Shown here piece by piece: positions 18,366 to 43,559 of a DNA stretch of 54,085 nucleotides (positions within the stretch are counted from its first letter, which is position 1; every line of letters starts with the position of its first letter). The stretch lies in NCBI RefSeq assembly GCF_011045165.1, contig NZ_JAAKZI010000031.1:1-54085 (forward strand), given 5' to 3'. The DNA comes from Arthrobacter silviterrae. Lineage in GTDB: Bacteria; Actinomycetota; Actinomycetes; Actinomycetales; Micrococcaceae. A program made the position numbers and the translations under genes. Below the pieces are notes generated by a model. The model was not told the origin of the DNA. It saw only the letters and a program-made list of their open reading frames with translations, and did no database searches.

Positions 18366-18800
18366 GAGACCTCCAAGGCCAAGAAAGTGGTAGCCGTGAC
18401 CGGCTGAGAGCCCCAGCCCTCCAGTTATGTAATCGCCGGGGGGAGTGGAAAAGTTACGCCCGCCGGACAAAAATTTTCAGTCGGCCTGCGTTTGTCCGGG
18501 TATGACGGTTGCGACGTGTTGTTCAACTCTTTGACGGCGGGGGTGTTTGAAAAATCGGAAGGGTGCCACGCTAGTGGTCATCAAGTGCCGGGAGCCCATG
18601 GCGGTGTCGATACTCCCCCCTGCGGGGGTGGGCTGGGGGCTGCCGCCGGTGTCATTGGAAACATGCGAATCATTGTTCACTCCAGTATCGCCGGGGTAGG
18701 ATGAGTGCGACGTTAGCCTGGGGGCGTGTTTGGGGTTCTTATCCTGCGCTTCGCTGTTTTCGGGCCAAATCTTTTGGTCCATCGAACCGGAGAAGATTTC
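18366..18800. other. Divergent intergenic region upstream of the GH25 gene
   Basis: The region is 435 bp between the minus-strand repeat protein and the plus-strand muramidase and must hold both promoters. A GC hairpin (CCCCCCTGCGGGGG near 18615-18630) is visible. A minus-strand frame here (18477-18830) has no coding character and runs into the muramidase gene. Confidence 0.4.
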
Positions 18801-21800: not shown

Positions 21801-22241
21801 GTCTCGGGCCAGCCGTATCCGGGCGTGCTGGGAATCACCGCGACGGGAAACCTGTTTTACTGGGCCAACAATTCCGGCGCGGCGCTTTCGGCCGGAAGCC
21901 AGATCGGCAACGGCTGGGGTTCTCTGCGCATCATCATGGTCGACTTCGATCAGGATGGCAGCCAGGACGTGCTGGCTGTGGACGGGCAGGGTGCGATGCG
22001 CCTTTACCGGTCCACCGGAAAAGGCAGCTTTATCCCCGAAGCCCGGCCGGTGGTGGGTTCAGGCTGGGCGTCCTTCCGGCAATTTACCGGCGTCACCGGC
22101 TTCGCCGGCCCCGGTAGCACTGGAGTTCTGGCGTATTCCTGGGATGGGACCGTTCGTTTTTATCCGATAACGGCACCCCGCACGTGGGGGACACCCAGTG
22201 TGCTGAGCCGGCACGTCACTGGAGCCGCGATCGGGGGTTGA
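18801..22241 (+). CDS. Secreted GH25 muramidase with three FG-GAP-type modules
   Basis: ATG 18801 follows GGAGA with 7-nt spacing, giving 1146 residues. A signal peptide ends near residue 45 (VPASAA). A Pro/Ser/Thr linker (50-110) follows. The lysozyme domain spans about 160-375, with D164 (GMDVSGWQ), E199 (IKATEG) and the catalytic D261-x-E263 (LLDIENN), plus IYTNYYWW and the C-terminal VWQYSSTG. Residues 395-1146 form three modules of about 250 residues; each opens with a DVVS/DVIS...GxLW line and contains Ca-binding-like loops (DWNSDGVLDLL, DFDGDGNQDLL, DWNADGTLDLL, DFDGDGNADI, DWNQDGIPDIL, DFDQDGSQDVL), that is, beta-propeller FG-GAP/VCBS blades. It cleaves peptidoglycan beta-1,4-muramic links, either in remodelling of its own wall or against other bacteria. 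The neighbouring convergent protease carries the same modules. Confidence 0.9.
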   Translation: MIAPWIRLTHVSSRSLPGGATRVVGAGLLAASLVVAMGTVPASAATGDPVPALSSTSAPTPATVVSSRATDGPTAAPQLLPGAVPAGPTTTASPTPVPSPSPTPTSAPSASEVGKFGAYMGIGLAKQGPTQQKLPVGATAQSLLSPSLAQPLSTVAPAGVLGMDVSGWQTSDAAHSVSDVDWVAQWRLGARFVYIKATEGTSFRDASFSSQYTGASSVGMLRGGYHFARPDQSDGATQANFFASNGGGWSADGKTMPPLLDIENNPYGAECYGLSASQMVAWISSFSQQVQARTGRLPMIYTNYYWWQDCTGNSTAFTHQPLHIAAYGTSSPWMPGGWANYSVWQYSSTGPFAGDSNTWNGTQASLSTFATKADSLSTNAPPASNPSIPSTADVVAADSTGVLWDYPANGAGGLGVRKQIGQGWTGLRSITVIDWNSDGVLDLLAQWSGGSLSLYRGLLGGGFTAPQTLASSGWSGYQLTVGYWANSAQYPQILTRSDSGELRLWKNASGSGIDAGTQIGNGWGALNLAMVDFDGDGNQDLLAQDASGTVRLYRSNGAGGFMAEARKTVATGWNAYTSNTVSSGFAAPGSTGLLQRDTSGALRYLPVPGNSTFGAPSVVGSGWNPYLIAGGENINTSLPASPPPTIVPTPNPSIKSVSDVVSVDGAGILWRYPVVNAMLGAGTQIGSGFTGIKSVHVTDWNADGTLDLLVQRTNGQLVLYPGAAAGGFSTPVTLAASGWAGYDLTVGQWIRGGKYPSIVAQAPGGSLTSFTTTNGTSLTAGTTLAQGMTRMHPVMTDFDGDGNADITAIDNIGRLILYRSDGKGSLISETRPIIGSGWNTMTSLGPANGYTAAGSTGLLAKTATGALLYYPTSASRFGAASSIASGWAGTIVAGSQTLSARQALMGVNDVISADANGILWNSAATGNGQLQAPYPIGVGWTGLKSLHVLDWNQDGIPDILAQWSSGILTVYRGVKGGNFMSPITVGSGGWANIRITTGRWVSGQPYPGVLGITATGNLFYWANNSGAALSAGSQIGNGWGSLRIIMVDFDQDGSQDVLAVDGQGAMRLYRSTGKGSFIPEARPVVGSGWASFRQFTGVTGFAGPGSTGVLAYSWDGTVRFYPITAPRTWGTPSVLSRHVTGAAIGG

Positions 22242-25429: not shown

Positions 25430-26612
25430 TCAATTCAGCTGACCCTCACAGTCCCGACGAATTGCACCACCTAATGGGACTTGACCTTGAAAGTGACAGG
25501 CGGCCACTAGCCCGGATTTTTTATGGTGGTTGGGTGGCCGGCCTGGCTGGGATTTGTTTTCCGGTCGGGTCGTTTTCTTGTTTTTGGGCGTATTTGGTGG
25601 GCCTGTTGTCGCTGGGTGGGCGTCGGTTTCCACTGGTCCCTGGGGGGGTGTTCTCGTGGTTGGAGGGGCCGGGCCTGGGTTTTCAGGCTGGCGCGGGCAG
25701 GCTTTTCGGCGGTGCTTGAGCTGGGCGATGCCGGCCAGGAGCGTGGCGACCGTGGATGTTTCAGGGGACATCTCGGAGATGAGGAGCCAGGTGCGGCGGG
25801 CGCGGGTGATGAGTTTCCCGGCGGTCGCGAAGAGCCGGTAGCGCCACCGTTTCACGCCCCAACTTTGGGCGGTGTTGCCGTTGGATAGGATGGCCAGCTG
25901 CAGCCAGGAGATGAGATTCATGGCCAGGGTCGCGATGTTTGCCCAGGCCTGGTTGGCATGAAAGTCAAAGAACGGCAGCTTGCCCAGCCCGGTGTTCTTC
26001 AACGTCTTGATCCGGTTCTCGCAGCGACCCGGGCGCGGTGGCGGGCATCGAGGGTGGGTCCGTGCCAGCGCGGGGAGTTCGTCAAGAAAGCCGTCAACCG
26101 GTGCCCGTCCGCATCCAATAGGGTTGCCTGCGCGCCGGGGTGGAGGGGCTCGGCGCGCAGGTACAGGTTCGTGCCCTCGGGGCAGTCTTCCAGTCCGAGG
26201 ACGTCTGTGGCGTTGACGACCCAGGCGTCCTCGCGTTCGTTCCCGCCCTGGTTCAGGGCCGGCTGCCAGTAGTGCTTGTCATTGATCCGGGCCACCATGG
26301 GCGCCTTCATCACGGGCACCGGGTAGGAGACGCTGAACTGCACGCCCAGGGACGCCAGATGGTGCAGGAATTTGCGTGAGGCCCCGGCACTGTCAGTGCG
26401 CACCGGGATCTTCTCCCCGATCAACCTGCCGTCCTCGTCGTAGAACGCGTCGGGCAGCCAGGCGATCGCGGCGGTGAAGATCTTGATGTGGTCCTCCGCG
26501 CCTTATGCCGATATCGGCATAAGGCACTGTTGGCCCCGGCATTGCCAGGTCGCAGCAGCTTAGCCAGGACTTCACCACCGCCGTTGCGGGCACCATCCGG
26601 GCTAGGGTACAG
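25430..26612 (-). pseudogene. IS1380-family transposase, disrupted
   Basis: Three out-of-frame pieces make one IS1380 transposase. The first, about 26500-26612, reads DGARNGGGEVLAKLLRPGNAGANSA. It is cut by the 26-nt palindrome at 26500-26525. The second (to about 26015) reads EDHIKIFTAAIAWLPDAFYDEDGRLIGEKIPVRTDSAGASRK...RWHGPTLDARHRAR. A second frameshift follows, and the third resumes RCENRIKTLKNTGLGKLPFFDFHANQAWANIATLAMNLISWLQL...LLAGIAQLKHR. The N-terminal ~150 residues are missing; the 5' break lies in the 3' end of the membrane-protein gene at 26602-28293. The element is dead. Confidence 0.85.
26500..26525. repeat. Perfect 26-nt palindrome splitting the IS1380 gene (core TTATGCCGATATCGGCATAA)
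   Basis: All 26 positions are self-complementary around 26512/26513. Removing exactly 26 nt would restore the transposase frame (NSA-EDHIK), so the palindrome appears to be a clean insertion. Its core matches that at 2017-2048 except at two symmetric base pairs. Confidence 0.8.
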
Positions 26613-29671: not shown

Positions 29672-30781
29672 TCAGATTTGAGGGTGTAGTTTCGGTCTGA
29701 ATCCGCCGGATTCGAGCAATGATCTCGCGACGTAGTTGGTGAGGTTGCGGAAACCGAGCGCTGAGCCGCGGAGGTGTTCCAGTCTCCCGTTGATTGCCTC
29801 GGTTGGGCCGTTGGAGGTGCCGGGTCTGTCGAAGTAGGCGAGCACGTCCGCCGCCCTTCTTTTGAGAGTCCGTCCCAGGGTTTTGAGTTCGGTGAGCGCG
29901 GCCGGGATGCCGGTACCGAGTGAGTCAACCACGGCCTGCATCAGCTTCCTTCCCTCGGTGCGGTCGGGTTCCCGGTAGGCGGTGATCATGCGCTGGTAGA
30001 TGCCCCACGCGGCTTCCACTTCTACATGCGTATCGGTTGCAAAGAGGTCTTCCAATCGCTTTTGTTGTTTCTCGGTGAGCAGCCCAGCTCCGGTGTGCAG
30101 GGTTCGTCTGGCTTTGTAGAGCGGATCGCCGGCCCGTCCGCGGTGCCCGCACGTTGCTTGCTGCACCCGGCGCCGGCAGACATCCAGGGCATCCCCTGCC
30201 AGGCGGATGACATGGAAGGGATCCATGACCGGGACGGCCTCTGGCAGCTCTTCGGTGGAAGCGCTTTTGAAGCCGGAGAACCCGTCCATGGCTACGACTT
30301 CTATCCCGTCCCGCCATGCTTGGGGGCGTGCCTGCAGCCAGGTGGCGAAGACCTGCTTCGAGCGGCCTTCGACCATGTCCAGGAGGCGGGACGGCCCTGT
30401 TTTGTCACGGATCGGGGTCAGGTCAATGATGACGGTGACATATTTGTCCCCATGGCGGGTGTGCCGCCAAACATGCTCGTCAACACCAATGACCTTCACC
30501 CCGTCAAAACGCCTCGGGTCATCGATGAGCACCCGCTTGCCTTCCGCCAGGACGGCATTGTTGGCGGTATTCCATGAGACGCCGAGTCCCTCGGCGACAC
30601 GGGCGACGGTGAGGTGTTGGCACACGATGCCTTCCAGCGCCCAGGCCAGTCCGCGGCGGGAGAGCTTCGCCCGCGGCTCAGCTGCTTTCGTGGTGTCTTG
30701 CCGCCACACGTGGCCGCATTCGCTGCAGCGGTAGCGGCGAAGCTTGATCAACCCCCTTCCCGCCGGCGGCCATGGTAGACA
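29672..30781 (-). pseudogene. ISL3-family transposase, N-terminally truncated
   Basis: About 365 residues of a DDE transposase of the ISL3 type: RYRCSECGHVWRQDT (zinc-finger remnant), LGVSWNTANNAVL (helix-turn-helix), VIGVDEHVWRH and VVAMDGFSGF (aspartates), then TSNGPTEAINGRLEHLRGSALGFRNLTNYVARSLLESGG (catalytic Glu and family-specific tail). The C-terminus and right end are intact. The first ~50 residues with the leading CxxC pair are missing; the frame instead continues antisense into the DUF6431 gene at 30828. The join is near 30750-30780. Confidence 0.85.
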
Positions 30782-30827
30782 AGAGTCATCGGCATGAGTG
30801 TTTGGCAGACGAGCAGGAGCAGGCACG

Positions 30828-31407
30828 ATGATGATCGTGAACAGCCCCCAGCCGGACGAGGCGGCGTTACGGGCAGGGGAAATACCCTGCCCGGGCTGTT
30901 CGGGCCGGCTGCGCCCCCCACGGGCACGCCCGCACCCGCACCGTGCGCGGCTTGGGCGACGCACGGTTGACCGTGCGGCCGCGGCGCGCCCGCTGCCCCG
31001 GTTGCGGCCGCACCCAGGTCCTGCTGCCAGCCGCGTTGTCCCTGCGCCGGGCCGACGCCCTCGAGGTCATCGGGACCGCACTGGCGGCCAAGGCCGCCGG
31101 CAGCGGGCATCGTCGGATCGCCACCCTGCTGGGCCGGCCCCTCTCGACGGTGCGCCGCTGGCTGAGACGCGTACCGAAAACCCACACCCAGTGGCTATAC
31201 GAGCAGGTCGTGCAGCACGCTTTCCGCCTCAACCCCGACATCCTGGTCCGCCCCAAACCCTGGCCGACCCTACTCGGCCATGGCTTGAATACCTTGGCCG
31301 GCGCGGCCCTGGCCTACTGCCGCCGGGTAGACCCCGAGCTGCCACCTTGGACCGTGATCGGCCACTTCACGCGAGGTAACCTCCTGAGCCTGCCGCTGCG
31401 CACCTGA
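30828..31407 (+). pseudogene. DUF6431-like zinc-ribbon/HTH protein, frameshifted
   Basis: Translation starts at ATG 30828 behind AGGAG (8-nt spacing) and reads MMIVNSPQPDEAALRAGEIP-CPGC-SGRLRP. It then shifts frame within a run of six C at 30914-30919; one C fewer would continue HGHARTRTVRGLGDARLTVRPRRARCPGCGRTQVLLPAALSLRRADALEVIG and on to a stop at 31407. The restored protein, about 192 residues, has two CPGC knuckles (a zinc ribbon) and a helix-turn-helix (GSGHRRIATLLGRPLSTVRRWLRR). Such proteins are usually seen beside IS elements. Either the gene is broken or the run contains a sequencing error. Confidence 0.75.
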
Positions 31408-31763: not shown

Positions 31764-33467
31764 TCAGAGTTCGACTGACGTGGGGCTCAGAAGATGAGTC
31801 CGACGCTCAGTGAGCTGTTCGGAGGTCAGTAACAATTCGCACAGTAGCCGTTCTATTGGTTCTGCCAAATTGATGCCGCTGAGTTCGGCAATTCGTTTCA
31901 GTCGGTATCTCAGCGACGTGGCATGGAGCTGCAGTTGCGCCGCGGCTGCCCGAACATCGCCAAAGTTTGCCAAGTATACGCTGAGGGTTTGGATGTAGTC
32001 GGAACCGTGTTGTGCGTCTTCAGTACGCAGAATTTCGAGACGGCAAAAACGCCGCTCCTGGAGGCTCGCCTCGTCCATGACGCGAAGCAGGGTGATGCGG
32101 GCGGCTGCTTGGTCGAAGGAGACGACGCCAGTGCCATCGCCCTGTGGCCAAAGTGCCACTGCCTCCAGGGTTTGGTCCACCTGCACCCGAAGCGTTGCGG
32201 TCTCACTCAGCGCCGTTGTTGTTTGGCTGAGGGCAAGGGTCATGGGATTGCCCAGCAATGACTTGCGCACGGCGTCGAGCATCGAGGCTGCCAACTTTGG
32301 AAGGCGAATGCTTGCGCGGTCGAAGTCATGGGCCAGAACGCAGTAGATCGTGTTACCAATGGCGCATGAGGCGGCCTTCCACCTATATGACTGGCAGTAG
32401 ATGGACACGGACTCAAGGGCGCGGGTGCGTTCGGTCGGGCCCAAGGATCCCTCGCCGGCGGCACGGAGGGCAAAGACCGTGTAGCTCTCGGCCGGCTGGA
32501 TGCCGAGTTCCTCAGCCTGGGCCCTCGCCAGCTCGCCGGATTCAAGCAAGCGCCGCAACATGCGGTGTTGGCTGGTGCGGTGAGAATAGGTGTCCTCATG
32601 GTGGCGAACTAGGTGGGGAGCTGCAATCCGCGCTGCTTGTGCCATGCGGAACTCCACATCATCGGGCAGTGGCGAGTCTCCTTCGGCAACCCACAAGACG
32701 CCAAGAAAGAAGCGTTCGGAACGGATGGCGCAAAGAAAACGCCTGGTCGCTTCGAAAGGGCCGCCGTCAACCGTCAGTACGGTGTCGGTGGTGAGCAGGG
32801 TGTCCAGCAGGCCCTTGGTTTCGAGATGTTCAAGCCACGCGTCGGGGATCTTGCGGCTAAGAATGGCCAGGTCCCGCCAGCGGTCGCTACCGCCTGTGGA
32901 AGTTGAGTACGAAAGCAGCTGGAGCTTTGCGTCTTCCATGATCACGGGTCCGCCGATCATGATCGAGAGGGCCTCGGCCAGGCTGGTCAGGTCACCGGCT
33001 GAGACTCCGGAGGACTCGATGACGTTGTCGACTTCTGCGTCTCGAAAAACGTTCCGCAGAATATCGGCAACCGCCAGCCAGGGAATTCCAGGGCGGCGCC
33101 AGACGACGGCCAGGCCGTGGGTTCGGGCAGATTGGAGCAGCTGTGTCCGGTCCTCGTCCGGAACTGGATCCGTAATGACCAGCTTGGCGCCCTGGTCGGC
33201 TGCGATTGCCAGCAATGGCAGCAAGTCGCCTAGGCTGCCGGGCACCACCAGCAGCACAACATCGTTGGAGCCGGCGCCTTCGAGCTCCAGCAGTCCTACG
33301 GACTCCACCCGTTGGGCGGTTCCGCTGGGAATCAATTCGACCGAGAAGATGTCCGGATCCAAGATATTGGGCAATTCGGAAATATGGACACCAGCGTCCA
33401 TTGGCTGCACCGTCCTTTCTGCTGTGGCACCGGCGATGGTGCGTTCGACAAACGTGCTCGTCTTCAT
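31764..33467 (-). CDS. PucR/CdaR-family transcriptional regulator
   Basis: A 567-residue regulator with an N-terminal PucR-like ligand domain (residues ~25-140: ISELPNILDPDIFSVELIPSG...VVWRRPGIPWLAVADILRNVFRD), a middle GAF-like domain (150-290: LSIMIGGPVIMEDAKLQLLSYS...FFLGVLWVAEGDSPLP) and a C-terminal HTH_30 domain (residues ~490-550: TLSVYLANFGDVRAAAAQLQLHATSLRYRLKRIAELSGINL). It is divergent from the MFS/cyclase/BKACE operon with 130 bp between the starts, the usual arrangement for a local, substrate-responsive regulator. It is therefore the probable switch of that operon; the effector may be the imported substrate or an acyl-CoA. Confidence 0.85.
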   Translation of the reverse strand: MKTSTFVERTIAGATAERTVQPMDAGVHISELPNILDPDIFSVELIPSGTAQRVESVGLLELEGAGSNDVVLLVVPGSLGDLLPLLAIAADQGAKLVITDPVPDEDRTQLLQSARTHGLAVVWRRPGIPWLAVADILRNVFRDAEVDNVIESSGVSAGDLTSLAEALSIMIGGPVIMEDAKLQLLSYSTSTGGSDRWRDLAILSRKIPDAWLEHLETKGLLDTLLTTDTVLTVDGGPFEATRRFLCAIRSERFFLGVLWVAEGDSPLPDDVEFRMAQAARIAAPHLVRHHEDTYSHRTSQHRMLRRLLESGELARAQAEELGIQPAESYTVFALRAAGEGSLGPTERTRALESVSIYCQSYRWKAASCAIGNTIYCVLAHDFDRASIRLPKLAASMLDAVRKSLLGNPMTLALSQTTTALSETATLRVQVDQTLEAVALWPQGDGTGVVSFDQAAARITLLRVMDEASLQERRFCRLEILRTEDAQHGSDYIQTLSVYLANFGDVRAAAAQLQLHATSLRYRLKRIAELSGINLAEPIERLLCELLLTSEQLTERRTHLLSPTSVEL

Positions 33468-33597
33468 TCAATTGACGAAGAGCTTCGGTTAAAATTTCTC
33501 CAATTGGAGGGCGAGATGGCGCTGCGTTCCACGATAGCTTTGCATAAGTGCCGAGGCAAGGACGCCAGAGCCATTGAAACTTGAAGGTGGTGCATCA
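33468..33597. promoter_or_regulatory. PucR-operon divergent promoter region with palindromes
   Basis: CTCCAATTGGAG at 33498-33509 is a perfect 12-nt palindrome, and TCAATTGA at 33468-33475 repeats its centre 30 bp away (three helical turns). An inverted repeat GAAG-AG-CTTC (33477-33486) lies between them. These are candidate regulator sites; no clear -35/-10 pair could be fixed. Confidence 0.4.
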
Positions 33598-35013
33598 ATG
33601 TTCGACGTTCTTGACCAGCAGACCCGGCTTACCGGACATCAGATCCGGCTTGCCGTTGTCGCGGCCTGGGCGATCTGCCTGGAATTCCTGGACTTCTTTC
33701 TCATCGGATTCATCCTGACGTTTGTCGCCGGTCCCTGGCATCTGACCATGGTCCAGTCGTCGGTCATCCTGCTGTCGTCCGGACTGGGCGCCATATTCGG
33801 TGCCATCTACTTTGGCCGACCCGCAGACAAATTGGGACGCCGAAAGGTGTTCCTCATAACCATCGCGGTCTTCACCCTTGCCACAGCGGCCCTTGCGCTG
33901 ACGCCGGCGAGCCCCACCATTGGCTACGCCTACCTTGTCCTCTTCCGCGTCGTGGTGGGCTTCGGCGGTGGCGGCCTCTACGTCGTGGACCTTCCGCTCG
34001 TGCAGGAATTCATGCCCACGTCCAAGCGCGGCCGTGTCTCCGGGCTTGTCACCTCCGCCGTCCCACTTGGCTTCCTGCTGGGCTCGGTCCTGGTGTGGAC
34101 GCTTTCCGGTGCCATTGGTTGGCGTGGCGTCCTCTGGGTCTCGGCAGCCCTTGGTTGCACCGTGTTCTTCATGCGTATTTCCATTCCGGAATCTCCCGTC
34201 TTCCGTGCCCGCCAAGGTGACGTGGAAGGTGCCCGGCGCTCCATTGCATGGGCGCTGAAGGTGGATCCCGGGACGCTCTCTCCGGAGGTGCCGGAGCAGC
34301 TGCTGGAGAACAAGAAGGCAAGCTTCCGCGAGTTGCTTGCGTATCCGCGAAGCTTTTGGGCCTCGGTTCTCTCGAACCTCGGTGCGCAGACCGGCTATTA
34401 CGGTCTGGCCCTGTGGACGCCGACACTGCTCATCCTGGTCGTCGGCATCAGCCCGGCCCAGTCCGCCCAGTACATGATTGCGGTGACGCTGGGCGCGCTT
34501 GCTGGGCGGCTGGTGCTGTCGTACCTGTCCGAACGCATCGGACGCCGCGCAACCGGCGGGATTGCCGGCACCGGTGCCGCCGTTCTCCTGATTGTGGCCG
34601 CATTGGCCAACGACATGACCTTCATGGGCGTTTCCATCTTCTTCGTGTTGCTCATCGCCATCTACTTCTTCGGTGAAGGCGGCTTCGCAATCGTGGGCCC
34701 GTACTCTGCTGAGGTCTGGCCGAGCCACCTCCGCACGACAGGCATGGGATTCGCCTACGGCATTGGCGGCATTGGCAAGGTCATCGGTCCGCTGGGCCTG
34801 GGCCTGATGCTTGGCTCGGTAAACCTGGTCAAGCCGGCACTCACCGAAACCAACCTGGTTCCCGGATTCGCCTACTTTGCCGCGTGGTACCTGCTCTGCG
34901 CCGCCATGTTTGTCTTTGTCGGCTTCGAAACCAAGAACAAGTCACTTGTCCAGATCGAGGACACAGTCGTTCAGCCCTCGGAAGCCCGCGAGACCAACGG
35001 CGCCAACGTCTGA
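33598..35013 (+). CDS. MFS transporter of the BKACE operon
   Basis: A 471-residue major-facilitator protein with 12 predicted helices. Motif A is present between helices 2 and 3 (GRPADKLGRRK) and repeated in the second half (SERIGRRATGG). The sequence RVVVGFGGGGLYVVDLPLVQEFMPTSKRGRVSGLVTSAVPLG is typical of the sugar-porter and aromatic-acid/metabolite-H+ symporter groups. ATG 33598 was chosen because GAAGGTGG lies just upstream; the longer frame from 33574 has no site. It is the first gene of the catabolic operon and should import the substrate, an organic acid or other small polar molecule. Confidence 0.85.
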   Translation: MFDVLDQQTRLTGHQIRLAVVAAWAICLEFLDFFLIGFILTFVAGPWHLTMVQSSVILLSSGLGAIFGAIYFGRPADKLGRRKVFLITIAVFTLATAALALTPASPTIGYAYLVLFRVVVGFGGGGLYVVDLPLVQEFMPTSKRGRVSGLVTSAVPLGFLLGSVLVWTLSGAIGWRGVLWVSAALGCTVFFMRISIPESPVFRARQGDVEGARRSIAWALKVDPGTLSPEVPEQLLENKKASFRELLAYPRSFWASVLSNLGAQTGYYGLALWTPTLLILVVGISPAQSAQYMIAVTLGALAGRLVLSYLSERIGRRATGGIAGTGAAVLLIVAALANDMTFMGVSIFFVLLIAIYFFGEGGFAIVGPYSAEVWPSHLRTTGMGFAYGIGGIGKVIGPLGLGLMLGSVNLVKPALTETNLVPGFAYFAAWYLLCAAMFVFVGFETKNKSLVQIEDTVVQPSEARETNGANV

Positions 35014-35063
35014 GCAGCCCAAACTTCCATCATCGATATACCAATTCTTGAAAGGACACACCC

Positions 35064-36041
35064 ATGACCACCGAGAGCACCACCAGCCGGGAAATCACCG
35101 TCGAATTGTTCGAGTCCCTCTACGAGTCGTGCAGCAACTGGGGCCGCTGGGGAACCGATGACCAGCGGGGCACCCTGAACTACATCACCCCCGAGGTCAT
35201 CCAAAAGGCAGCCAGCCTCGTCCGCAGCGGCAAGGCCGTCTCACTGCAGCTGCCGATCGACGCGGACGGACCGCAGACCGGCAACCTTGGCCGCGTCAAC
35301 CCGATCCACCAAATGACGGCCACGGGAACCGACCACGTCAACGGTGCCCAGATTTTCGAAGGCGACTCCCTCGGTTTCGGATTTGCCGACGACAGCATCT
35401 TTATGTTCCTGCAGGGAGGCACCCAATGGGACGCCCTGGGGCACGTCTTCCGCAACGGAAAGATGTACAACGGCTTCAGCGCCAGTGAAGTTACGGCCCA
35501 GGGTGCCAAGCGCGGCGGCGTGGAAAACATGCCCACCGTGGTCTCGCGCGGCGTCCTGCTGGACCTTCCCGCCGTCAAGGGCAAGAGCCACCTGAGCCCC
35601 GGGGAAGCCATCACCCCGGAAGACCTGGACGAGGCCTGCACCTTCCACAACGTCACGATTGAGCCCGGCGATGTCGTCTTGATCCGCACCGGCGACATGG
35701 CTGCACGCCGCGACCTGCCCCAGTGGGACGGCTATTCCGGCGGCGATGCACCCGGCCTCTCACTGCGTACCGCCAGCTGGTTCCACGAAAAGAAGGTGGC
35801 CGCCATCGCCACCGACACGTGGGGTGCAGAAGTGCGACCCAACGAACTGGAAGCCTCCTTCCAGCCGCTGCACCTGATCCTGATCGTCTCCATGGGCCTG
35901 CTGGTGGGGGAGATCTGGGAGCTGGATTCCCTGGCAGCTGAATGTGCCGCGGACGGCCGCTACGAATTCCTGTTCGTGGGCCCGCCCCTGGTCATCCCGG
36001 GCGCCGTGGGCGCACCTCTGAACCCGCAGGCCATTAAGTAA
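35064..36041 (+). CDS. Cyclase-family (PF04199) hydrolase
   Basis: A 325-residue metal-dependent hydrolase of the cyclase/kynurenine-formamidase/isatin-hydrolase superfamily. The motif FMFLQGGTQWDALGHVF corresponds to the family's HxGTHxDxPxH metal site; here Q-W replaces His-x, as in many family members with long N-terminal regions, while D and the final H are kept. The N-terminal block SNWGRWGTDDQRGTLNYITPEVI is diagnostic of this subgroup. These enzymes open cyclic amides, imides or lactones. It starts 50 bp after the transporter with AAAGGA before ATG. In this operon it is the best candidate for the ring-opening or first hydrolysis step that makes the beta-keto acid for the next enzyme. 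Confidence 0.8.
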   Translation: MTTESTTSREITVELFESLYESCSNWGRWGTDDQRGTLNYITPEVIQKAASLVRSGKAVSLQLPIDADGPQTGNLGRVNPIHQMTATGTDHVNGAQIFEGDSLGFGFADDSIFMFLQGGTQWDALGHVFRNGKMYNGFSASEVTAQGAKRGGVENMPTVVSRGVLLDLPAVKGKSHLSPGEAITPEDLDEACTFHNVTIEPGDVVLIRTGDMAARRDLPQWDGYSGGDAPGLSLRTASWFHEKKVAAIATDTWGAEVRPNELEASFQPLHLILIVSMGLLVGEIWELDSLAAECAADGRYEFLFVGPPLVIPGAVGAPLNPQAIK

Positions 36042-36074
36042 CTACAACATTCCAAGCAAAGGAGCCGATTGACC

Positions 36075-37004
36075 ATGGCCAAGAGAAAAGTAATCATCAC
36101 AAGCGCGGTGACCGGTTCCATCCACACCCCGTCCATGTCGCCCCACCTGCCGGTGTCGCCGGAGGAAATCGCCGATGCGGCGATCGGAGCGGCCGAGGCC
36201 GGTGCCGCCATTGTCCACATGCACGCCCGGGATCCCAAGGACGGCCGGCCGTCACAGGACCCCAAGCACTTTGAACCGATCCTGGCCAAGCTGAAGGCAA
36301 ACACCAACGCCGTCATCAACCTGACCACAGGCGGCTCCCCACACATGAGCGTTGAGGAAAGGATGCAGCCGGCAGCCGTGTTCAAGCCCGAGCTGGCCTC
36401 GTTGAACATGGGCTCGATGAACTTTGGCCTGTACCCGATGCTGGACCGCTTCAACACCTTTGAGCATGAGTGGGAGCGCGAAGGGCTGGAGAAGTCCCGT
36501 GACCTGGTGTTCAAGAACACCTTCGCCGACATCCAGAAGATCCTCGAAACCGGCAATGCGAACGGCACCAGGTTTGAGTTCGAATGCTACGACATCTCAC
36601 ACCTGAACAACCTTGCCCACTTCCATGCACGCGGACTGGCGCGAGGACCCCTGTTCATCCAATCCGTCTTCGGCCTGTTGGGCGGCATTGGGGCACACGC
36701 GGAAGATCTCATGCACATGCGCCGCACCGCAGACCGTCTCTTCGGCGACGCCTATGAGTGGTCCATCCTTGGGGCCGGCAAGAACCAGATGCCGCTGGCC
36801 ACCATCGGTGCCGCCACGGGATCCCACGTCCGCGTCGGCCTGGAGGACTCGCTGTGGATTGGGCCCGGCAAGCTGGCGCAGTCCAATGCCGAGCAGGTCA
36901 CCCGTGTGAGGACCATCCTGGAAGCGCTGAACTTTGACATCGCCACACCGGACGAGGCCCGCGAAATGCTGCAGCTCAAGGGTGCGGACCAGGTCGGTTT
37001 CTAA
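36075..37004 (+). CDS. Beta-keto acid cleavage enzyme (BKACE, DUF849)
   Basis: A 309-residue TIM-barrel Zn enzyme. The start block KVIITSAVTGSIHTPSMSPHLPVSPEEIADAAIGAAEAGAAIVHMHARDPKDG is the family hallmark, with the metal pair H48-x-H50. GGSPHMSVEERM, FECYD and HVRVGLEDSLW (the Glu that completes the site) are intact. BKACEs condense a beta-keto acid with acetyl-CoA and split it to acetoacetate plus the CoA ester of the shortened acid. Its ATG follows AAGGAG; a TTG two codons upstream is possible. The stop overlaps the CoA-transferase start by 1 bp. The substrate specificity (3-oxo acid side chain) cannot be read from sequence. Confidence 0.9.
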   Translation: MAKRKVIITSAVTGSIHTPSMSPHLPVSPEEIADAAIGAAEAGAAIVHMHARDPKDGRPSQDPKHFEPILAKLKANTNAVINLTTGGSPHMSVEERMQPAAVFKPELASLNMGSMNFGLYPMLDRFNTFEHEWEREGLEKSRDLVFKNTFADIQKILETGNANGTRFEFECYDISHLNNLAHFHARGLARGPLFIQSVFGLLGGIGAHAEDLMHMRRTADRLFGDAYEWSILGAGKNQMPLATIGAATGSHVRVGLEDSLWIGPGKLAQSNAEQVTRVRTILEALNFDIATPDEAREMLQLKGADQVGF

Positions 37005-37786
37005 TGGCGGGCATCGACAAGAGCTATCCCGACGCGGCCGCCGCCGTGGCCGACATCCCGCATGGGGCGTCACTGTCCGTGGGCGGGTTCGGGCTCTCCG
37101 GCAACCCCATAGCCCTCATCCAGGCATTGCTGGACCAAGGCGCGGGGGACCTCAGCGTTGTTTCCAACAATTGCGGTGTTGACGGCTGGGGTCTGGGGCT
37201 CCTCCTGGACGCCGGCCGGATCCGCAAGATGACCTCCTCCTACGTCGGTGAGAACAAGGAGTTCGCCCGGCGCTACCTCAACGGCGAACTGGAACTGGAA
37301 CTTACCCCTCAGGGAACCCTGGCCGAGAAGCTGCGGGCGGGCGGGTCCGGGATCGCCGCGTTCTACACCCGCTCCGGCGTGGGCACCCAGGTGGCCACCG
37401 GCGGTTTGCCGCAGAAGTACGACGCCGAGGGGAACGTTGTGCAGGCATCGGCGGCCAAGGATGTGCGTGAGTTTGCGCCGCGCGGGAAGAACGCAGAGTA
37501 CGTGCTGGAGGAGTCCATCGTTACTGACTATGCCCTGATTCATGCGGCCAAGGGCGACAAGCACGGAAATCTGGTCTTCAACAAGGCGGCACGTCAATTC
37601 TCACCACCGGCAGCCATGGCCGGGAAGGTCTGCATCGCCCAGGTGGAGGAACTCGTGGAAGCCGGCAGCATCGACCCGGACATGGTCCACTTGCCGGGAG
37701 TCTATGTGCATCGGATTGTGCACGTCGGAAAAGACATTGAAAAGCGCATCGAAAAGCGCACGGTGACCGCCAGAGAGGGGCACTGA
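37004..37786 (+). CDS. 3-oxoacid CoA-transferase, subunit A
   Basis: A 260-residue alpha subunit of a family I CoA-transferase (SCOT, AtoD or PcaI type): [102 protein letters not shown] and the downstream [18 protein letters not shown] are all present. It joins subunit B in a heterotetramer. It would activate acetoacetate made by BKACE to acetoacetyl-CoA, with succinyl-CoA, acetyl-CoA or another donor. Overlap with the BKACE gene and a 1-base gap to subunit B show tight coupling. Confidence 0.9.
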
Positions 37787-37787
37787 C

Positions 37788-38435
37788 ATGGCTCTGACCA
37801 GAGAAGAAATGGCCGCCCGGGCCGCCCTTGAACTCAACGACGGCGATTACGTCAACCTGGGCATCGGAGTTCCCACGCTGGTACCCAATTACATCCCGGA
37901 AGAACTCACAGTGGTGCTGCAATCCGAAAACGGGATTCTCGGCGTCGGACCTTATCCCTATGACGAAGACGTGGACCCGGACCTGATCAATGCCGGCAAG
38001 GAAACCGTGACGGTCAACCCGGGGGCGTCGTTCTTTGACTCGACCACCAGTTTCGCCATGATTCGCGGGGGCAAGATAGACGCGGCCATCCTGGGCGCCA
38101 TGCAGGTCTCGGCCGCAGGCGACCTAGCCAACTGGACCATTCCCGGGAAGATGATCAAGGGGCCCGGCGGTGCCATGGACCTGGTCCACGGGGCCGGGCG
38201 GGTCATTGTCCTGATGGACCACACGGCCAAGGACGGCTCGCCGAAGATCGTGAAAAGCTGTTCGCTGCCGCTGACGGGCCAGGGCGTGGTGGACCGCATC
38301 ATCACCAATCTTGCGGTGATTGACGTGACACCCGATGGCCTGGTGCTCGTGGAGCTGGCAGACGGGGTTGACATCGAGGACGTCATTGCCTCGACGGAAC
38401 CAGAGCTGAAGATACCGGCGGCGCTGTCCGTCTGA
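37788..38435 (+). CDS. 3-oxoacid CoA-transferase, subunit B
   Basis: A 215-residue beta subunit of the same enzyme. The catalytic glutamate is E47 in [12 protein letters not shown]. GxGxP-like [15 protein letters not shown] and the C-terminal domain motifs [60 protein letters not shown] are present. The start, ATG 37788, lies directly after the alpha-subunit stop, with GAGAGGGG upstream. After the stop, a strong hairpin (38446-38478) separates this gene from the thiolase. Confidence 0.9.
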
Positions 38436-38445
38436 TAGCACCAAC

Positions 38446-38478
38446 ACATGGCTGCGCCCGCTGCGGTCGCAGCCATGT
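38446..38478 (+). terminator. Intercistronic stem-loop before the thiolase gene
   Basis: ACATGGCTGCG (38446-38456) pairs perfectly with CGCAGCCATGT (38468-38478), an 11-bp stem with an 11-nt loop. No T-run follows, so read-through to the thiolase is expected; it may reduce downstream expression or stabilise the upstream mRNA. Confidence 0.5.
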
Positions 38479-38536
38479 ATCCGGGATTGCCCTGCCGCGT
38501 CCCCCGGAACAGACCTATTTAGAAAGCGAATTTTGC

Positions 38537-39721
38537 ATGAGCCTGTATTCACAATTTGGCAAGGATGTGCTCTTGACGGGCTGGGGACACAGCCAGTTCG
38601 GCAAGCTGGGCGACGAGACCCTGGAATCCCTGATCGTCCAGGTCTCCCGTGAGGCCATTGACAACGCGGGCATAGAACCGGCGCAGATCGACGAGATTTA
38701 CGTCGGACAGTTCAACGCCGGAATGATGCCCCTGGCATTTCCTTCCTCGCTGGCCCTGCAGGTCTCGGAGCAACTGGCGAACGTACCCGCCACACGGGTG
38801 GAGAATGCGTGCACCTCGGGATCGGCCGCCATGCAGCAAGGCGCAAAGGCCCTGCTGGCCGGTACGGCCACGACGGTGTTGGTCGTCGGCGCCGAAAAGA
38901 TGACACATGCCGGTGCCGATGTGGTGGGTGGCGCCCTCCTGGGAGCGGACTACGACATGGCAGGCAAATCCTCGACGACGGGGTTCACCGGTCTTTTTGC
39001 CGACGTCGCCAAGCACTACGAACAACGTTATGGACCCGTAGGGGACGTGCTGGGTTCCATTGCGGCAAAGAACCACCGAAACGGCGTGGACAATCCGTAC
39101 GCGCAATTGCGCAAGGACCTGGGGGAGGAGTTCTGCCGCACCGTCTCGGAACGCAACCCCTTGGTCGCCGCGCCGCTTCGCCGCACGGATTGTTCCCCCG
39201 TGTCCGACGGCGCGGCCGCCATGGTACTGTCTGTGGCACCGACCGGCTCGGTGACGGGGCCTGTTCGTCTGGCAGGTTTTGGGCAGGCAAATGACTTCAT
39301 GCCCGCCGAGCGCCGCGACCCGACAGCCTTTGCCGGTGTCAGGGCATCATTCGAGCGGGCCCTTGCCATGGCCGGAACGACCCTTGGCGAACTGGATTTT
39401 GCCGAGGTGCATGACTGCTTCACGATTGCCGAACTGCTCATGTACGAGGCCATGGGGCTGGCCGAACCCGGGCACGGCGCGCGCGCCGTTGATGAGGGCT
39501 GGGTGTTCAGGGACGGGAAGCTGCCGATCAACGTTTCCGGCGGTCTCAAGGCCAAGGGCCATCCCGTCGGGGCAACGGGCGTGTCCCAGCACGTGCTGGC
39601 CGCGATGCAGCTGACCGGGACGGCAGGAGACATGCAGCTGCCCCGGGCCAGGCGCGCCGCCGTCCAGAACATGGGTGGAGTGGGAATCGCCAACTACGTC
39701 AGCATCCTGGAAGCGGTTTAG
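38537..39721 (+). CDS. Thiolase, SCP2-type acyl-CoA acetyltransferase
   Basis: A 394-residue thiolase. The nucleophile is C92 in VENACTSGSAAM. The second catalytic elements follow the SCP2/SCPx pattern: HDCFTIAELLMYEAMGL (with the HDCF cysteine) and NVSGGLKAKGHPVGATG (catalytic His), while the classical C-terminal CxGGG is replaced by QNMGGVG. It would cleave acetoacetyl-CoA, or a longer 3-oxoacyl-CoA from the pathway, with CoA to acetyl-CoA. AGAAAGCG precedes ATG 38537. It is the last gene of the catabolic operon; no terminator is clear afterwards. Confidence 0.85.
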   Translation: MSLYSQFGKDVLLTGWGHSQFGKLGDETLESLIVQVSREAIDNAGIEPAQIDEIYVGQFNAGMMPLAFPSSLALQVSEQLANVPATRVENACTSGSAAMQQGAKALLAGTATTVLVVGAEKMTHAGADVVGGALLGADYDMAGKSSTTGFTGLFADVAKHYEQRYGPVGDVLGSIAAKNHRNGVDNPYAQLRKDLGEEFCRTVSERNPLVAAPLRRTDCSPVSDGAAAMVLSVAPTGSVTGPVRLAGFGQANDFMPAERRDPTAFAGVRASFERALAMAGTTLGELDFAEVHDCFTIAELLMYEAMGLAEPGHGARAVDEGWVFRDGKLPINVSGGLKAKGHPVGATGVSQHVLAAMQLTGTAGDMQLPRARRAAVQNMGGVGIANYVSILEAV

Positions 39722-40661: not shown

Positions 40662-43559
40662 ATGGATATTCGCCACAAGGGAAGGGAGCTTGGTATGGCT
40701 TCGAAGAGCCGCCGGTCAGTGCAGGAACCAATATTGGTCATGGACCACGTCCGTTCCGCCATGGGACATCCAGGGCAGACCCGCACGGGCGCCCTTGACC
40801 GGCATGCCAACGCCCATGATGCCTCCCACTTCCTGCTGATCCCGCAGGCCGTCGCCGTTCCCGCCAACGCTGCTGAAGTGGCTGCGCTGATGCGCGTCAG
40901 CGCCGCCCGCGGGCTGCCGCTGACGCTGCGCTCCGGCGGCACTAGCCTCAGCGGCCAGGGCGTCAGCGACGGACTGCTGGTGGATGTGCGCAAGAACTTC
41001 CGCGCCATTGACGTGCTCGACGGCGGAGCGCGGGTCCGCGTGCAGCCGGGGGTCACGGTGCGGGAACTGAATGCGCGGCTGCTGGGCATTGGCCGCAAGT
41101 TCGGGCCCGACCCGGCCAGCGAAGCGGCCTGCACCATTGGCGGGGTGGTCGCCAACAACTCCTCCGGCATGGCCTGCGGAACCACCGACAACGCGTACCG
41201 GACGCTGGAATCGCTGACCCTGGTGCTGCCTAGCGGGACCATCATCGACACGGGCGCCCCCGACGCCTCCGTGCAGTTGCGCACGCAGGAACCCGAGCTT
41301 TTCAGGGGTCTGGGTGAGCTGGCCGGGCGGGTCCGCAGCAATCCGGCCTCCCGTGCCACGATTGAGCAGCAGTTCTCCATGAAGAACACCATGGGCTACG
41401 GGCTGAACTCGCTGCTGGACTTCGAGGACCCCGTGGACATCCTGGCCCATCTGGTCATCGGCAGCGAAGGCACCCTGGGGTTCGTGGCCGAGGCCGTGTT
41501 CCGGACGGTGCCGCGGCTGGCCCACGCCACCTCCGGCCTGCTGGTGTTCAAGAACCTGGAGGCCGCCAACACGGCCCTGTCTGCCCTGGTCGACAGCGGA
41601 GCCGCAACCATTGAACTCATGGACTCTCTTTCCCTCAAGGTGGGGCAGGGGCTCACGCAGGTGCCCGGCGTGGTGCGCACACTGACCGTGGAGCAGCATG
41701 CGGCCCTGCTGGTGGAATACCACAGTGATGACCTGGACAACTTGGCAGTCGTCACCGACAGGGCTGTTTCGCTTGCCGGCACACTGGGCCTGGACGGGCC
41801 TACCGAGTTCAGCTCGGACGCCACGGTCCGGGCCGGGCTGTGGCACCTGCGCAAGGGGCTCTACACCTCGGTGGCCGGGGCCCGCCCGCAGGGCACCACC
41901 GCGCTGCTAGAGGATGTGGTGGTTCCCGTCCCCGCACTGGCCCGGACCTGCCTGGAGCTGACCACGCTCTTTAATAAGTACGGCTATGCCAATTCCGTCA
42001 TTTTTGGGCATGCGAAAGACGGCAACATCCACTTCATGCTGACAGACAAGTTCGCCAGCAGGGATGAGCTGGACCGCTATTCGGCCTTCACCGAGGACAT
42101 GGTGGACGTTGTGCTCGGCGAGGGCGGCTCTCTCAAGGCCGAACACGGCACCGGGCGCGTCATGGCACCCTTTGTGCGCCGCCAGTACGGCGACGAGCTG
42201 TACGCGGTGATGCGCCGCATCAAGGAGTTGTGCGACCCCGCCGGCATGCTGAACCCGGGCGTCATCCTTGACGAAGACCCTCTGGCGCACTTGCGCCATA
42301 TAAAGGCTGCACCGCCCGCGGTTGATCCGGACGTCGACCGCTGCGTCTCCTGCGGCTACTGCGAGCCGGTGTGCCCCAGCAAGAACCTGACGCTGACCCC
42401 TCGCCAGCGCATCGTGACGCTGCGGGACATGGAGGCGGCCCGCCTCGAAGGGAATACGGCATTGGCGCAGGAGCTCGCCAAGGACTATGACTACGCCGGC
42501 GTGGACACCTGCGCCGTGGACGGCATGTGCCAAACCGCCTGCCCCGTGGACATCAACACCGGCACCCTAGTCAAGCACCTGCGCGAACGCGATGCCGGCA
42601 GGATTGAAAATGCCGTGTGGGGCACGGCCGCAAGGCACTGGGGTGCCGTCACCCAGGGGGCCGGGCTGGCACTGGGCGTTGCCGCGAAGGTGCCGGCCGG
42701 CGTCTTGCTTCCTGTTAATAGGGTGGCACGCAAGGTGCTCGGCGAGGACACGCTGCCCCTCTATTCCCCTGAGCTGCCCGCGGGAGGGAAGGCCCGACGC
42801 CGGCCCGCACCTTTGGGGGAGCCGACGGCCGTGTATTTCCCCGCGTGCGTGAACGTGATGTTCGGGCCCGCCGGGGAGGGTTCGCCAGGCGTGCAGGCGA
42901 GTTTTGAGCAACTGTGTGCCGCGGCCGGGGTGGAACTGCTGGTCCCGGAGGGCATCTCCGATGCGTGCTGCGGGACGCCGTGGTCCTCGAAGGGGATGGC
43001 TGCCGGGCTGGCCCAAATGCACGCCCGCACGCTGGCGCTGCTGCGCGAGGCCACACGGGACGGGACACTCGAGGTCATTTGCGATGCCTCCAGCTGCACC
43101 GAGGGGCTGCTGCACACGATTGAGAGCGAGGTGCTGGCGCCGGGCCAGCGGCCCCTGCAGGTGGTGGATGCCGTGGCGTTCACTGCCGAGAAACTGCTAC
43201 CGCTGCTGGACGGGGACTGGGAACGGGTTCCGTCGCTGGCGCTGCACCCCGCGTGCTCCTCGGTCCGCATGGGGCTCAACCCTGCCCTGGTCCAGGTGGC
43301 GGAGGCTGCGGCGGACTCCGTGCAGGTGCCCGGGAATTGGGGCTGCTGCGGCTTTGCCGGGGACCGCGGCATGCTGCACCCGGAGCTGACCGCCTCAGCC
43401 ACGGCGGTACAGGCGGCTGAGGTAGCAGCCATGGGCGCCGTCGCGCATGCATCCTGCAACCGCACATGCGAACTTGGCATGACGCGGGCCACAGGTGAAG
43501 ACTACCGGCACGTGCTGGAAATCCTCGCAGACACCGTGGCGGGCTGCCCGCCGCGGTAG
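40662..43559 (+). CDS. Fused FAD-linked oxidase and [4Fe-4S]-CCG oxidoreductase (D-2-hydroxyacid dehydrogenase type)
   Basis: A 965-residue single-chain flavo-iron-sulfur enzyme. Residues ~55-240 are the FAD_binding_4 domain (PLTLRSGGTSLSGQGVSDGLLVD; CTIGGVVANNSSGMACGTTDNAYRTLESL), ~240-540 the FAD-oxidase C domain (VIFGHAKDGNIHFMLTDKF; EHGTGRVMAPFVRRQYG). Then come two cluster ligand sets CVSCGYCEPVCP and CAVDGMCQTACPVDI, and two CCG domains (ACVNVM...CCGTPW and HPACSS...CCGFAG) near the C-terminus. This is a GlcD-GlcF-like fusion as in bacterial D-lactate or D-2-hydroxyglutarate dehydrogenases, passing electrons to the quinone pool. AGAGGTGAGCGT precedes ATG 40662. The gene stands alone between decayed regions; its substrate is not known. 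Confidence 0.85.
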   Translation: MDIRHKGRELGMASKSRRSVQEPILVMDHVRSAMGHPGQTRTGALDRHANAHDASHFLLIPQAVAVPANAAEVAALMRVSAARGLPLTLRSGGTSLSGQGVSDGLLVDVRKNFRAIDVLDGGARVRVQPGVTVRELNARLLGIGRKFGPDPASEAACTIGGVVANNSSGMACGTTDNAYRTLESLTLVLPSGTIIDTGAPDASVQLRTQEPELFRGLGELAGRVRSNPASRATIEQQFSMKNTMGYGLNSLLDFEDPVDILAHLVIGSEGTLGFVAEAVFRTVPRLAHATSGLLVFKNLEAANTALSALVDSGAATIELMDSLSLKVGQGLTQVPGVVRTLTVEQHAALLVEYHSDDLDNLAVVTDRAVSLAGTLGLDGPTEFSSDATVRAGLWHLRKGLYTSVAGARPQGTTALLEDVVVPVPALARTCLELTTLFNKYGYANSVIFGHAKDGNIHFMLTDKFASRDELDRYSAFTEDMVDVVLGEGGSLKAEHGTGRVMAPFVRRQYGDELYAVMRRIKELCDPAGMLNPGVILDEDPLAHLRHIKAAPPAVDPDVDRCVSCGYCEPVCPSKNLTLTPRQRIVTLRDMEAARLEGNTALAQELAKDYDYAGVDTCAVDGMCQTACPVDINTGTLVKHLRERDAGRIENAVWGTAARHWGAVTQGAGLALGVAAKVPAGVLLPVNRVARKVLGEDTLPLYSPELPAGGKARRRPAPLGEPTAVYFPACVNVMFGPAGEGSPGVQASFEQLCAAAGVELLVPEGISDACCGTPWSSKGMAAGLAQMHARTLALLREATRDGTLEVICDASSCTEGLLHTIESEVLAPGQRPLQVVDAVAFTAEKLLPLLDGDWERVPSLALHPACSSVRMGLNPALVQVAEAAADSVQVPGNWGCCGFAGDRGMLHPELTASATAVQAAEVAAMGAVAHASCNRTCELGMTRATGEDYRHVLEILADTVAGCPPR

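Follow-up and report, generated by a model that had tools for sequence, protein, structure and literature searches.

This report concerns seven genes in a 54,085-nucleotide stretch of DNA from Arthrobacter silviterrae (assembly GCF_011045165.1, contig NZ_JAAKZI010000031.1, positions 1 to 54,085; the whole stretch is called the window here), six of them on the plus strand at 33598..39721 and the seventh, encoding a PucR-family regulator, divergent from them. Our preferred reading, which we regard as evenly poised between right and wrong, is that they form a PucR-controlled operon in which a ring-opening hydrolase yields a beta-keto acid that passes through BKACE and then through CoA-transferase and thiolase to acetyl-CoA. 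The reactions, co-transcription, transport, regulation and type of ring in this scheme are all predicted. PucR would control the catabolic operon, and the major facilitator superfamily (MFS) transporter would import a small, probably acidic cyclic compound. A metal-dependent cyclase-family hydrolase would then open an ester-type ring (lactone or enol-lactone) directly to a beta-keto acid, the two-carbon end of which BKACE would move onto acetyl-CoA to give acetoacetate and an acyl-CoA. Finally, the CoA-transferase would put CoA on acetoacetate, and from the resulting acetoacetyl-CoA the thiolase would release two acetyl-CoA. In related operons a short-chain dehydrogenase/reductase (SDR) probably makes the keto acid, and in the window the hydrolase would act in its place. 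If this is true, there is a second way of feeding BKACE, by ring hydrolysis instead of hydroxy-acid oxidation.

Gene content and layout

Gene content, kinship, placement and conserved active-site residues were observed directly. All seven reading frames are intact and stand in the following order.

31764..33467, minus strand: PucR-family regulator, 567 aa (outside 33598..39721 but part of the gene set described)
33468..33597, no strand: divergent intergenic region between PucR and MFS genes, 130 bases
33598..35013, plus strand: MFS transporter, ATG start (or perhaps TTG at 33574, farther upstream)
35064..36041, plus strand: cyclase-family (PF04199) hydrolase of the Q-x3-Q-x-D-x3-H (esterase) subgroup
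36069..37004, plus strand: BKACE (PF05853), TTG start (in-frame ATG at 36075)
37004..37786, plus strand: 3-oxoacid CoA-transferase subunit A
37788..38435, plus strand: 3-oxoacid CoA-transferase subunit B
38537..39721, plus strand: SCP2-type thiolase of the PRK07516 subfamily

The six plus-strand genes, from MFS through thiolase, are spaced by 50, 27, -1, 1 and 101 bases and, judged by this spacing alone, are probably co-transcribed. Scans for consensus terminators (8 sites, 7.8 expected) and promoters (2 sites, 1.3 expected) gave counts at the chance level. The Pfam and NCBIfam assignments agree with the gene names, and their E-values exclude chance (3e-108 for BKACE, 2e-97 for CoA-transferase subunit B). 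The open frames, their order and these matches bear out the gene list and divergent PucR gene of the preliminary description. No SDR is found among the genes of the operon. That the seven intact genes belong to coherent families, and that six of them follow one another closely on the same strand, speaks for the preferred reading.

The hydrolase in the place of an SDR

The BKACE matches PF05853 over its full length (361.7 bits against a curated cut-off of 24.8, positions 1-274 of 274) and carries His50, His52 and Glu259, which we take to be the zinc ligands. It is the single BKACE gene of the host genome. A family-wide search at E <= 1e-60 matched 39 of 395 genomes, namely the host, 34 genomes at 85-90% identity and four at 53-69%, with no other member of the host genus among them. 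In a phylum-wide sample, 16 of 396 genomes including the host had a match, the other 15 at 42-61% identity. Of the 39 family matches, 30 came with loci. In all, 20 BKACE regions were fetched, 19 from the family search and one from the phylum sample. Matches below the identity and length cut-offs in these regions, or below 60 bits at the cyclase loci described below, were dropped before counting, and some loci of both kinds end at contig edges (L025 right after the cyclase gene), so that all neighbour counts are lower bounds.

An SDR gene adjoins BKACE in all 18 regions in which BKACE is at least 84% identical to that of the window. These regions also contained LacI (17), MFS (16), glycerate kinase (11), a CoA-transferase A/B pair (5) and an SMP-30-type gluconolactonase (3), and a LacI-MFS-SDR-BKACE operon, often with glycerate kinase, could be seen in the Micrococcaceae loci L154-L171. 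The two remaining regions (BKACE 69% and 62% identical) had no match to SDR, LacI, MFS, glycerate kinase, CoA-transferase or SMP-30 at the cut-offs used, and cyclase, PucR and SCP2-thiolase were matched in none of the 20 regions. The hydrolase thus occupies the slot that an SDR holds in the related operons. No close copy of the SDR of the related operons was found in the host genome (nine matches, the best 41-42% identical), nor of the SDR adjacent to the cyclase gene in Mycobacterium (eight matches, the best 39%). Both the exchange of SDR for hydrolase beside BKACE and the lack of these close copies support the proposed ring-opening step. The comparison of neighbourhoods over Micrococcaceae that the preliminary description had proposed recovered kin of the BKACE, 18 of 18 with an SDR, but not the hydrolase-BKACE arrangement itself.

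For the BKACE tree, 57 rows were used, consisting of the window enzyme and 56 sequences, which were left when identical ones had been removed from 76 extracted at a minimum of 80% length and 35% identity; the window's own copies (L001, L002 and L109) were excluded. The window enzyme and 28 Micrococcaceae SDR-operon enzymes form one group of 29 with support 100/99, and a position inside or beside these 28 relatives fits the tree either way. It differs from them at seven sites that are otherwise invariant (A17S, I85L, I161T, V197I, P211A, M250T and Q268K), which suggests an altered role.

The related operons are similar to the oxidative deoxyribonate pathway (Price et al. 2019, PMC6365646), for which SDR oxidation to 2-deoxy-3-ketoribonate, a proposed BKACE cleavage to acetoacetate and glyceryl-CoA, and a glycerate kinase are described. 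We infer from this likeness that the 18 Micrococcaceae SDR-BKACE operons may perform that pathway, and the CoA-transferase pair present in five of them is a candidate for the glyceryl-CoA step, to which no gene could be assigned in PMC6365646. The window shares with this published pathway the action of BKACE with acetyl-CoA on a beta-keto acid, MFS transport and a thiolase; its BKACE and CoA-transferase are close kin of those in the operons resembling it. However, the SDR, LacI and glycerate kinase are not in the window operon, which has the hydrolase and PucR instead. An SDR-type deoxyribonate dehydrogenase was not found, while glycerate kinase is encoded elsewhere in the host genome by two genes (PF02595), both outside the operon. 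Filing the operon under the deoxyribonate pathway was rejected because it has no SDR.

These comparisons bear on a different explanation, that BKACE serves a 2-deoxy-3-ketoribonate-type acid supplied by an unlinked dehydrogenase and that PucR, MFS and hydrolase were joined to it by chance and belong to another pathway. The high identity of BKACE to enzymes of 34 Micrococcaceae genomes and its grouping with them would fit such an origin, as would the two glycerate kinase genes and the Mycobacterium PucR-cyclase pairs in genomes without a BKACE match. Against it stand the missing close copy of the related operons' SDR, the gap of just 27 bases between the hydrolase and BKACE genes, which share a strand and are flanked by MFS and CoA-transferase, and the seven substitutions at sites invariant in 28 relatives. 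On balance we consider this explanation rather improbable, though it deserves to be kept in mind.

Plasmid-borne BKACEs have diverse neighbours (seven regions of 163 matching records), and a cyclase gene stood next to none of the seven, by annotation or by tblastn. On a Caballeronia plasmid (L013), BKACE (72%) lies between an SDR gene and a gene of the N-acyl homoserine lactonase family. Genes for a sugar ABC transporter, a 3-hydroxyacyl-CoA dehydrogenase and SMP-30 are present there too, so that this is a further BKACE setting that includes a lactonase-like gene, perhaps for a sugar acid.

Active site of the hydrolase

The AlphaFold2 model of the hydrolase (mean pLDDT 90.6, 35 sequences) had 5IBZ as its top Foldseek match, with a TM-score of 0.86 by query length and 41% identity; further matches, at 12-21% identity, included isatin hydrolases and kynurenine formamidases (KynB). 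The entry 5IBZ was confirmed to be MGS0169, described in PMC5341072 as a Mn-stimulated esterase with Gln-x3-Gln-x-Asp-x3-His instead of the His motif. The same paper notes the Q-type motif in trans-dienelactone hydrolase of Pseudomonas reinekei MT1, and reports that Ala at Gln127, Gln131, Asp133, Arg87, His286 or Glu299 impaired the activity of MGS0169 and that H137A was insoluble. Once the numbering of the structure's chain is matched to that of the paper, from which it differs throughout by 18, Q117, Q121, D123, H127, R77, H270 and E283 of the window enzyme align with seven of the eight highly conserved active-site residues of MGS0169. The fold and these residues are alike, and the match is a further argument for the preferred reading. 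The eighth residue, Phe84, differs and aligns with Thr72.

Isatin hydrolase carries the motif HxG[T/A]HxDxPxH (PMC6117287; PMC5341072). The window enzyme reads QGGTQWDALGH, with Gln117 and Gln121 replacing the first two His, and so does not have the motif of isatin hydrolase and kynurenine formamidase. Because it has the Q-type site of MGS0169 and not the His motif, the enzyme looks closer to the hydrolases of esters or lactones than to those of C-N or C-C bonds. Metal-dependent hydrolysis of an ester or lactone is predicted for it, and the esterase-subgroup site would favour a lactone over an amide or imide as substrate. That its substrate is instead an amide or an imide (N-formylkynurenine or isatin, for instance) appears highly improbable to us: isatin hydrolase and KynB do share the fold, and weak activity of MGS0169 on isatin is reported (PMC5341072), but the His motif is absent and neither a kynureninase nor an amine-handling gene is among the seven genes. 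If the lactone prediction is true, it would give a substrate class for part of a PF04199 subgroup, the natural substrates of which look mostly unknown.

A cyclase-family hydrolase joined to BKACE through triacetate is already published for the anaerobic phloroglucinol pathway of Clostridium scatologenes (PMC10470551), the only published pairing of the two among the papers listed by an open-access literature search. As the paper presents it, the link from cyclase to BKACE passes through a dehydrogenase step, and a cyclase-family hydrolase, BKACE (TAL), CoA-transferase, thiolase, MFS and regulator are found together as they are in the window. Its dihydrophloroglucinol hydrolase (DPGC), a retro-Claisen C-C hydrolase, suggests that the window enzyme might likewise cut a C-C bond, in a cyclic 1,3-diketone or keto-form phloroglucinol, to give 3,5-dioxohexanoate directly. 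We hold this to be unlikely. DPGC is stated in the paper to have the metal site of isatin hydrolase, whereas the window hydrolase is esterase-like with Gln at the places of the first two His, and neither the phloroglucinol reductase nor the TfD-like dehydrogenase of the Clostridium pathway is encoded between 31764 and 39721 (the operon region, to which this search was confined). With two enzymes missing from the operon and a differing metal motif, filing it under the Clostridium pathway was rejected.

Relatives and neighbours of the hydrolase

A named-genome scan with the hydrolase gave 592 cyclase loci, of which the best 80 were kept; the locus counts in this section refer to these 80. Its nearest relatives are in two Mycobacterium loci (74% and 73% identity), followed by four actinobacterial loci at 62-65%. 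In the Mycobacterium loci PucR and cyclase genes are followed by an SDR gene, and an Amidohydro_2 gene lies on the other side of PucR. The window PucR shares 48% identity over 485 aa with the PucR that adjoins the close cyclase relative in Mycobacterium L022, and a PucR related to that of the window (46-48%) was found in just these two loci at the cut-off used. BKACE had no match at E <= 1e-10 in either of these two Mycobacterium genomes with the PucR-cyclase pair. The hydrolase itself was found in none of 22 other genomes of the host genus at E <= 1e-60, and in a class-wide sample it was matched in three of 394 genomes, the host included, at E <= 1e-100. Close to a 65% relative from the class sample (G1209) an ABC-transporter ATPase was matched, whereas BKACE and PucR were not. 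Near a cyclase relative of 63-65% in the same genome, an open reading frame (L200, 1355-2470) resembles by eye a hydrolase of the phosphotriesterase (lactonase-like) family.

At six loci (L049, L061, L063, L066, L070 and L080) the cyclase gene has a BKACE of 57-67% identity no more than 2.5 kb away. These six BKACEs are spread over two branches of the BKACE tree, four of them being near-identical or close kin. The count becomes seven when a distant BKACE is included; left out of the six were a BKACE in L058 (28% identity, about 3.6 kb away from its cyclase) and another in L097 (26%). The presence of a related BKACE near a family cyclase at these loci adds support to the preferred reading.

CoA-transferase and thiolase

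Both CoA-transferase subunits scored above their NCBIfam cut-offs (A, pcaI/scoA, 226.8 against 128.5 bits; B, pcaJ/scoB, 324.4 against 243.55 bits), and the thiolase did so for PRK07516 (607 against 412 bits). Their functions in the pathway are predicted from these family matches. The nearest CoA-transferase pair among the loci compared lies beside BKACE in L135/L169 (one genome) and is 79% (A) and 78% (B) identical. The thiolase is 70-76% identical to thiolases that follow CoA-transferase A/B genes on two Rhodococcus plasmids and one Arthrobacter plasmid. The Rhodococcus plasmids L104 and L105 have the same order of CoA-transferase A, CoA-transferase B and SCP2-type thiolase as the window (identities 50/68/74% and 49/65/70%); their module adjoins genes for fumarylacetoacetase and a cupin dioxygenase, and the stretches fetched contained neither BKACE nor cyclase. 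Acetoacetate is the end product expected in such a fumarylacetoacetase setting. The presence of kin of the CoA-transferase and thiolase in this acetoacetate setting is consistent with their place in the preferred scheme.

The operon as a whole looks like a patchwork put together from parts of separate origin. Given the grouping in the BKACE tree and the identity of the CoA-transferase to that of L135/L169, BKACE and CoA-transferase look like one block derived from an SDR-type Micrococcaceae operon, with the hydrolase in the SDR slot. PucR and hydrolase look like a second imported block and the thiolase like a third. Three points were absent from the preliminary description: the link of BKACE to the deoxyribonate pathway, the relatives of PucR and hydrolase in Mycobacterium, where no BKACE accompanies them, and the Clostridium phloroglucinol pathway.

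Several observations weigh against the preferred reading, two of them most strongly. First, the arrangement of the window is so far unique, being found in one genome only, and the hydrolase-BKACE step therefore has no conservation behind it. Second, the closest kin of the hydrolase (73-74%) are in the two genomes without a BKACE match, and so the ancestral product need not have been a beta-keto acid. Further, a close BKACE neighbour was not seen at 74 of the best 80 of 592 cyclase loci, some of which are cut at contig edges. An SDR cluster is the most frequent neighbour there (16 of 80), followed by an amidohydrolase-like one (13 of 80), both of them named after their members in L021/L022, and for this reason BKACE counts as an infrequent partner of hydrolases in this family. 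The Phe84 to Thr72 difference also counts here, as does the fact that MGS0169 was assayed, as reported in PMC5341072, on model esters and not on a known natural lactone. Finally, other SDRs of the host genome could still supply the keto acid. The order of hydrolase, beta-keto acid, BKACE and CoA-transferase/thiolase put forward in the preliminary description nevertheless gained from the SDR replacement and the esterase-type site, whereas the substrate that it named is a guess compatible with the data.

Candidate substrates

In a narrower form of the preferred reading, the route would do without a dehydrogenase: a Q-type lactonase of the cyclase family would act on a vinylogous-acid lactone, either a tetronate or a 4-hydroxy-2-pyrone (triacetic acid lactone, for example), and its product would already be the beta-keto acid cleaved by BKACE. 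This route is a minority possibility. Within the preferred reading as a whole, a 4-hydroxy-2-pyrone such as triacetic acid lactone seems a doubtful substrate and a tetronic-acid-type lactone a still more doubtful one; most of the probability lies with a ring outside the named candidates.

Triacetic acid lactone, the substrate suggested in the preliminary description, would be opened to 3,5-dioxohexanoate and give acetoacetate and acetoacetyl-CoA, as a sub-case of the preferred reading. The proposal is chemically fitting, as the stoichiometry closes with exactly these genes and an esterase-type hydrolase suits a lactone. The triacetate link of the Clostridium pathway (PMC10470551) is in line with it too. 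A related enzyme, BKACE15 of Paracoccus denitrificans (PDB 8RIO), which aligns with the window BKACE nearly end to end (441 bits), is reported to accept 3,5-dioxohexanoate (PMC11961710). But that paper also lists beta-ketohexanoate, beta-ketopentanoate, 5-hydroxy-beta-ketohexanoate and malonate semialdehyde as substrates and states the physiological role of BKACE15 to be unknown. Moreover, at the seven sites private to the window enzyme, BKACE15 has the same residue in two cases (161 and 197) and another in five (17, 85, 211, 250 and 268), having the residue of the SDR-operon enzymes at 17, 85, 211 and 250. The window BKACE scored 546.6 bits on NF053538 (3,5-dioxohexanoate:acetyl-CoA acetone transferase, an equivalog model with a cut-off of 430), but the BKACE of an SDR/glycerate-kinase operon (L161), whose own substrate is itself a prediction, scored 547.4. 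Because an SDR-operon enzyme scores equally, the name of this model carries little weight on the substrate and was rejected as support for triacetate. The evidence for this particular lactone is indirect, and the data do not strongly favour it. Among the papers listed by an open-access literature search for genes of triacetic-acid-lactone breakdown, none was on the topic. As for other keto acids, 3-oxoadipate is an unlikely BKACE substrate, since the 3-oxoadipate BKACE model gave 162.6 bits against a cut-off of 350.

We know of no gene assigned to triacetate lactonase activity. If the lactonase route is true, it would supply one and would show a sugar-acid-type BKACE re-used for polyketide-type lactones; the operon as read here would be a means of degrading natural products of the pyrone or tetronate type. 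The comparison further illustrates that family names can mean little, as the 3,5-dioxohexanoate label fits BKACEs of clearly different operons equally.

Transporter, intergenic region and surrounding genes

The best NCBIfam match of the MFS protein is aromatic acid/H+ symport, with a score under that model's cut-off. The protein is 49% identical to the MFS following a related cyclase in L088 (Acidobacteria), where an open reading frame by the cyclase and MFS genes resembles by eye an acylating semialdehyde dehydrogenase. Between the PucR and MFS genes there is an imperfect inverted repeat, CAATTGACGAA / TTCTCCAATTG, at 33469-33506 with CAATTG in each arm, a possible candidate for an operator.

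An ISL3-family transposase gene (PF01610) lies at 29672-30964, about 0.8 kb past the PucR gene. The window also contains a fragment of DDE_Tnp_1_4 (25430-26002) and, at 175-1260, a gene with an integrase core. On the other side, 940 bases downstream of the operon, 40662-43559 encodes a protein of 965 aa in which an FAD-linked oxidase is joined to an iron-sulfur/CCG part (GlcD-/GlpC-like). A protein of 1171 aa with a GH25 lysozyme-type domain and FG-GAP repeats is encoded at 18726-22241.

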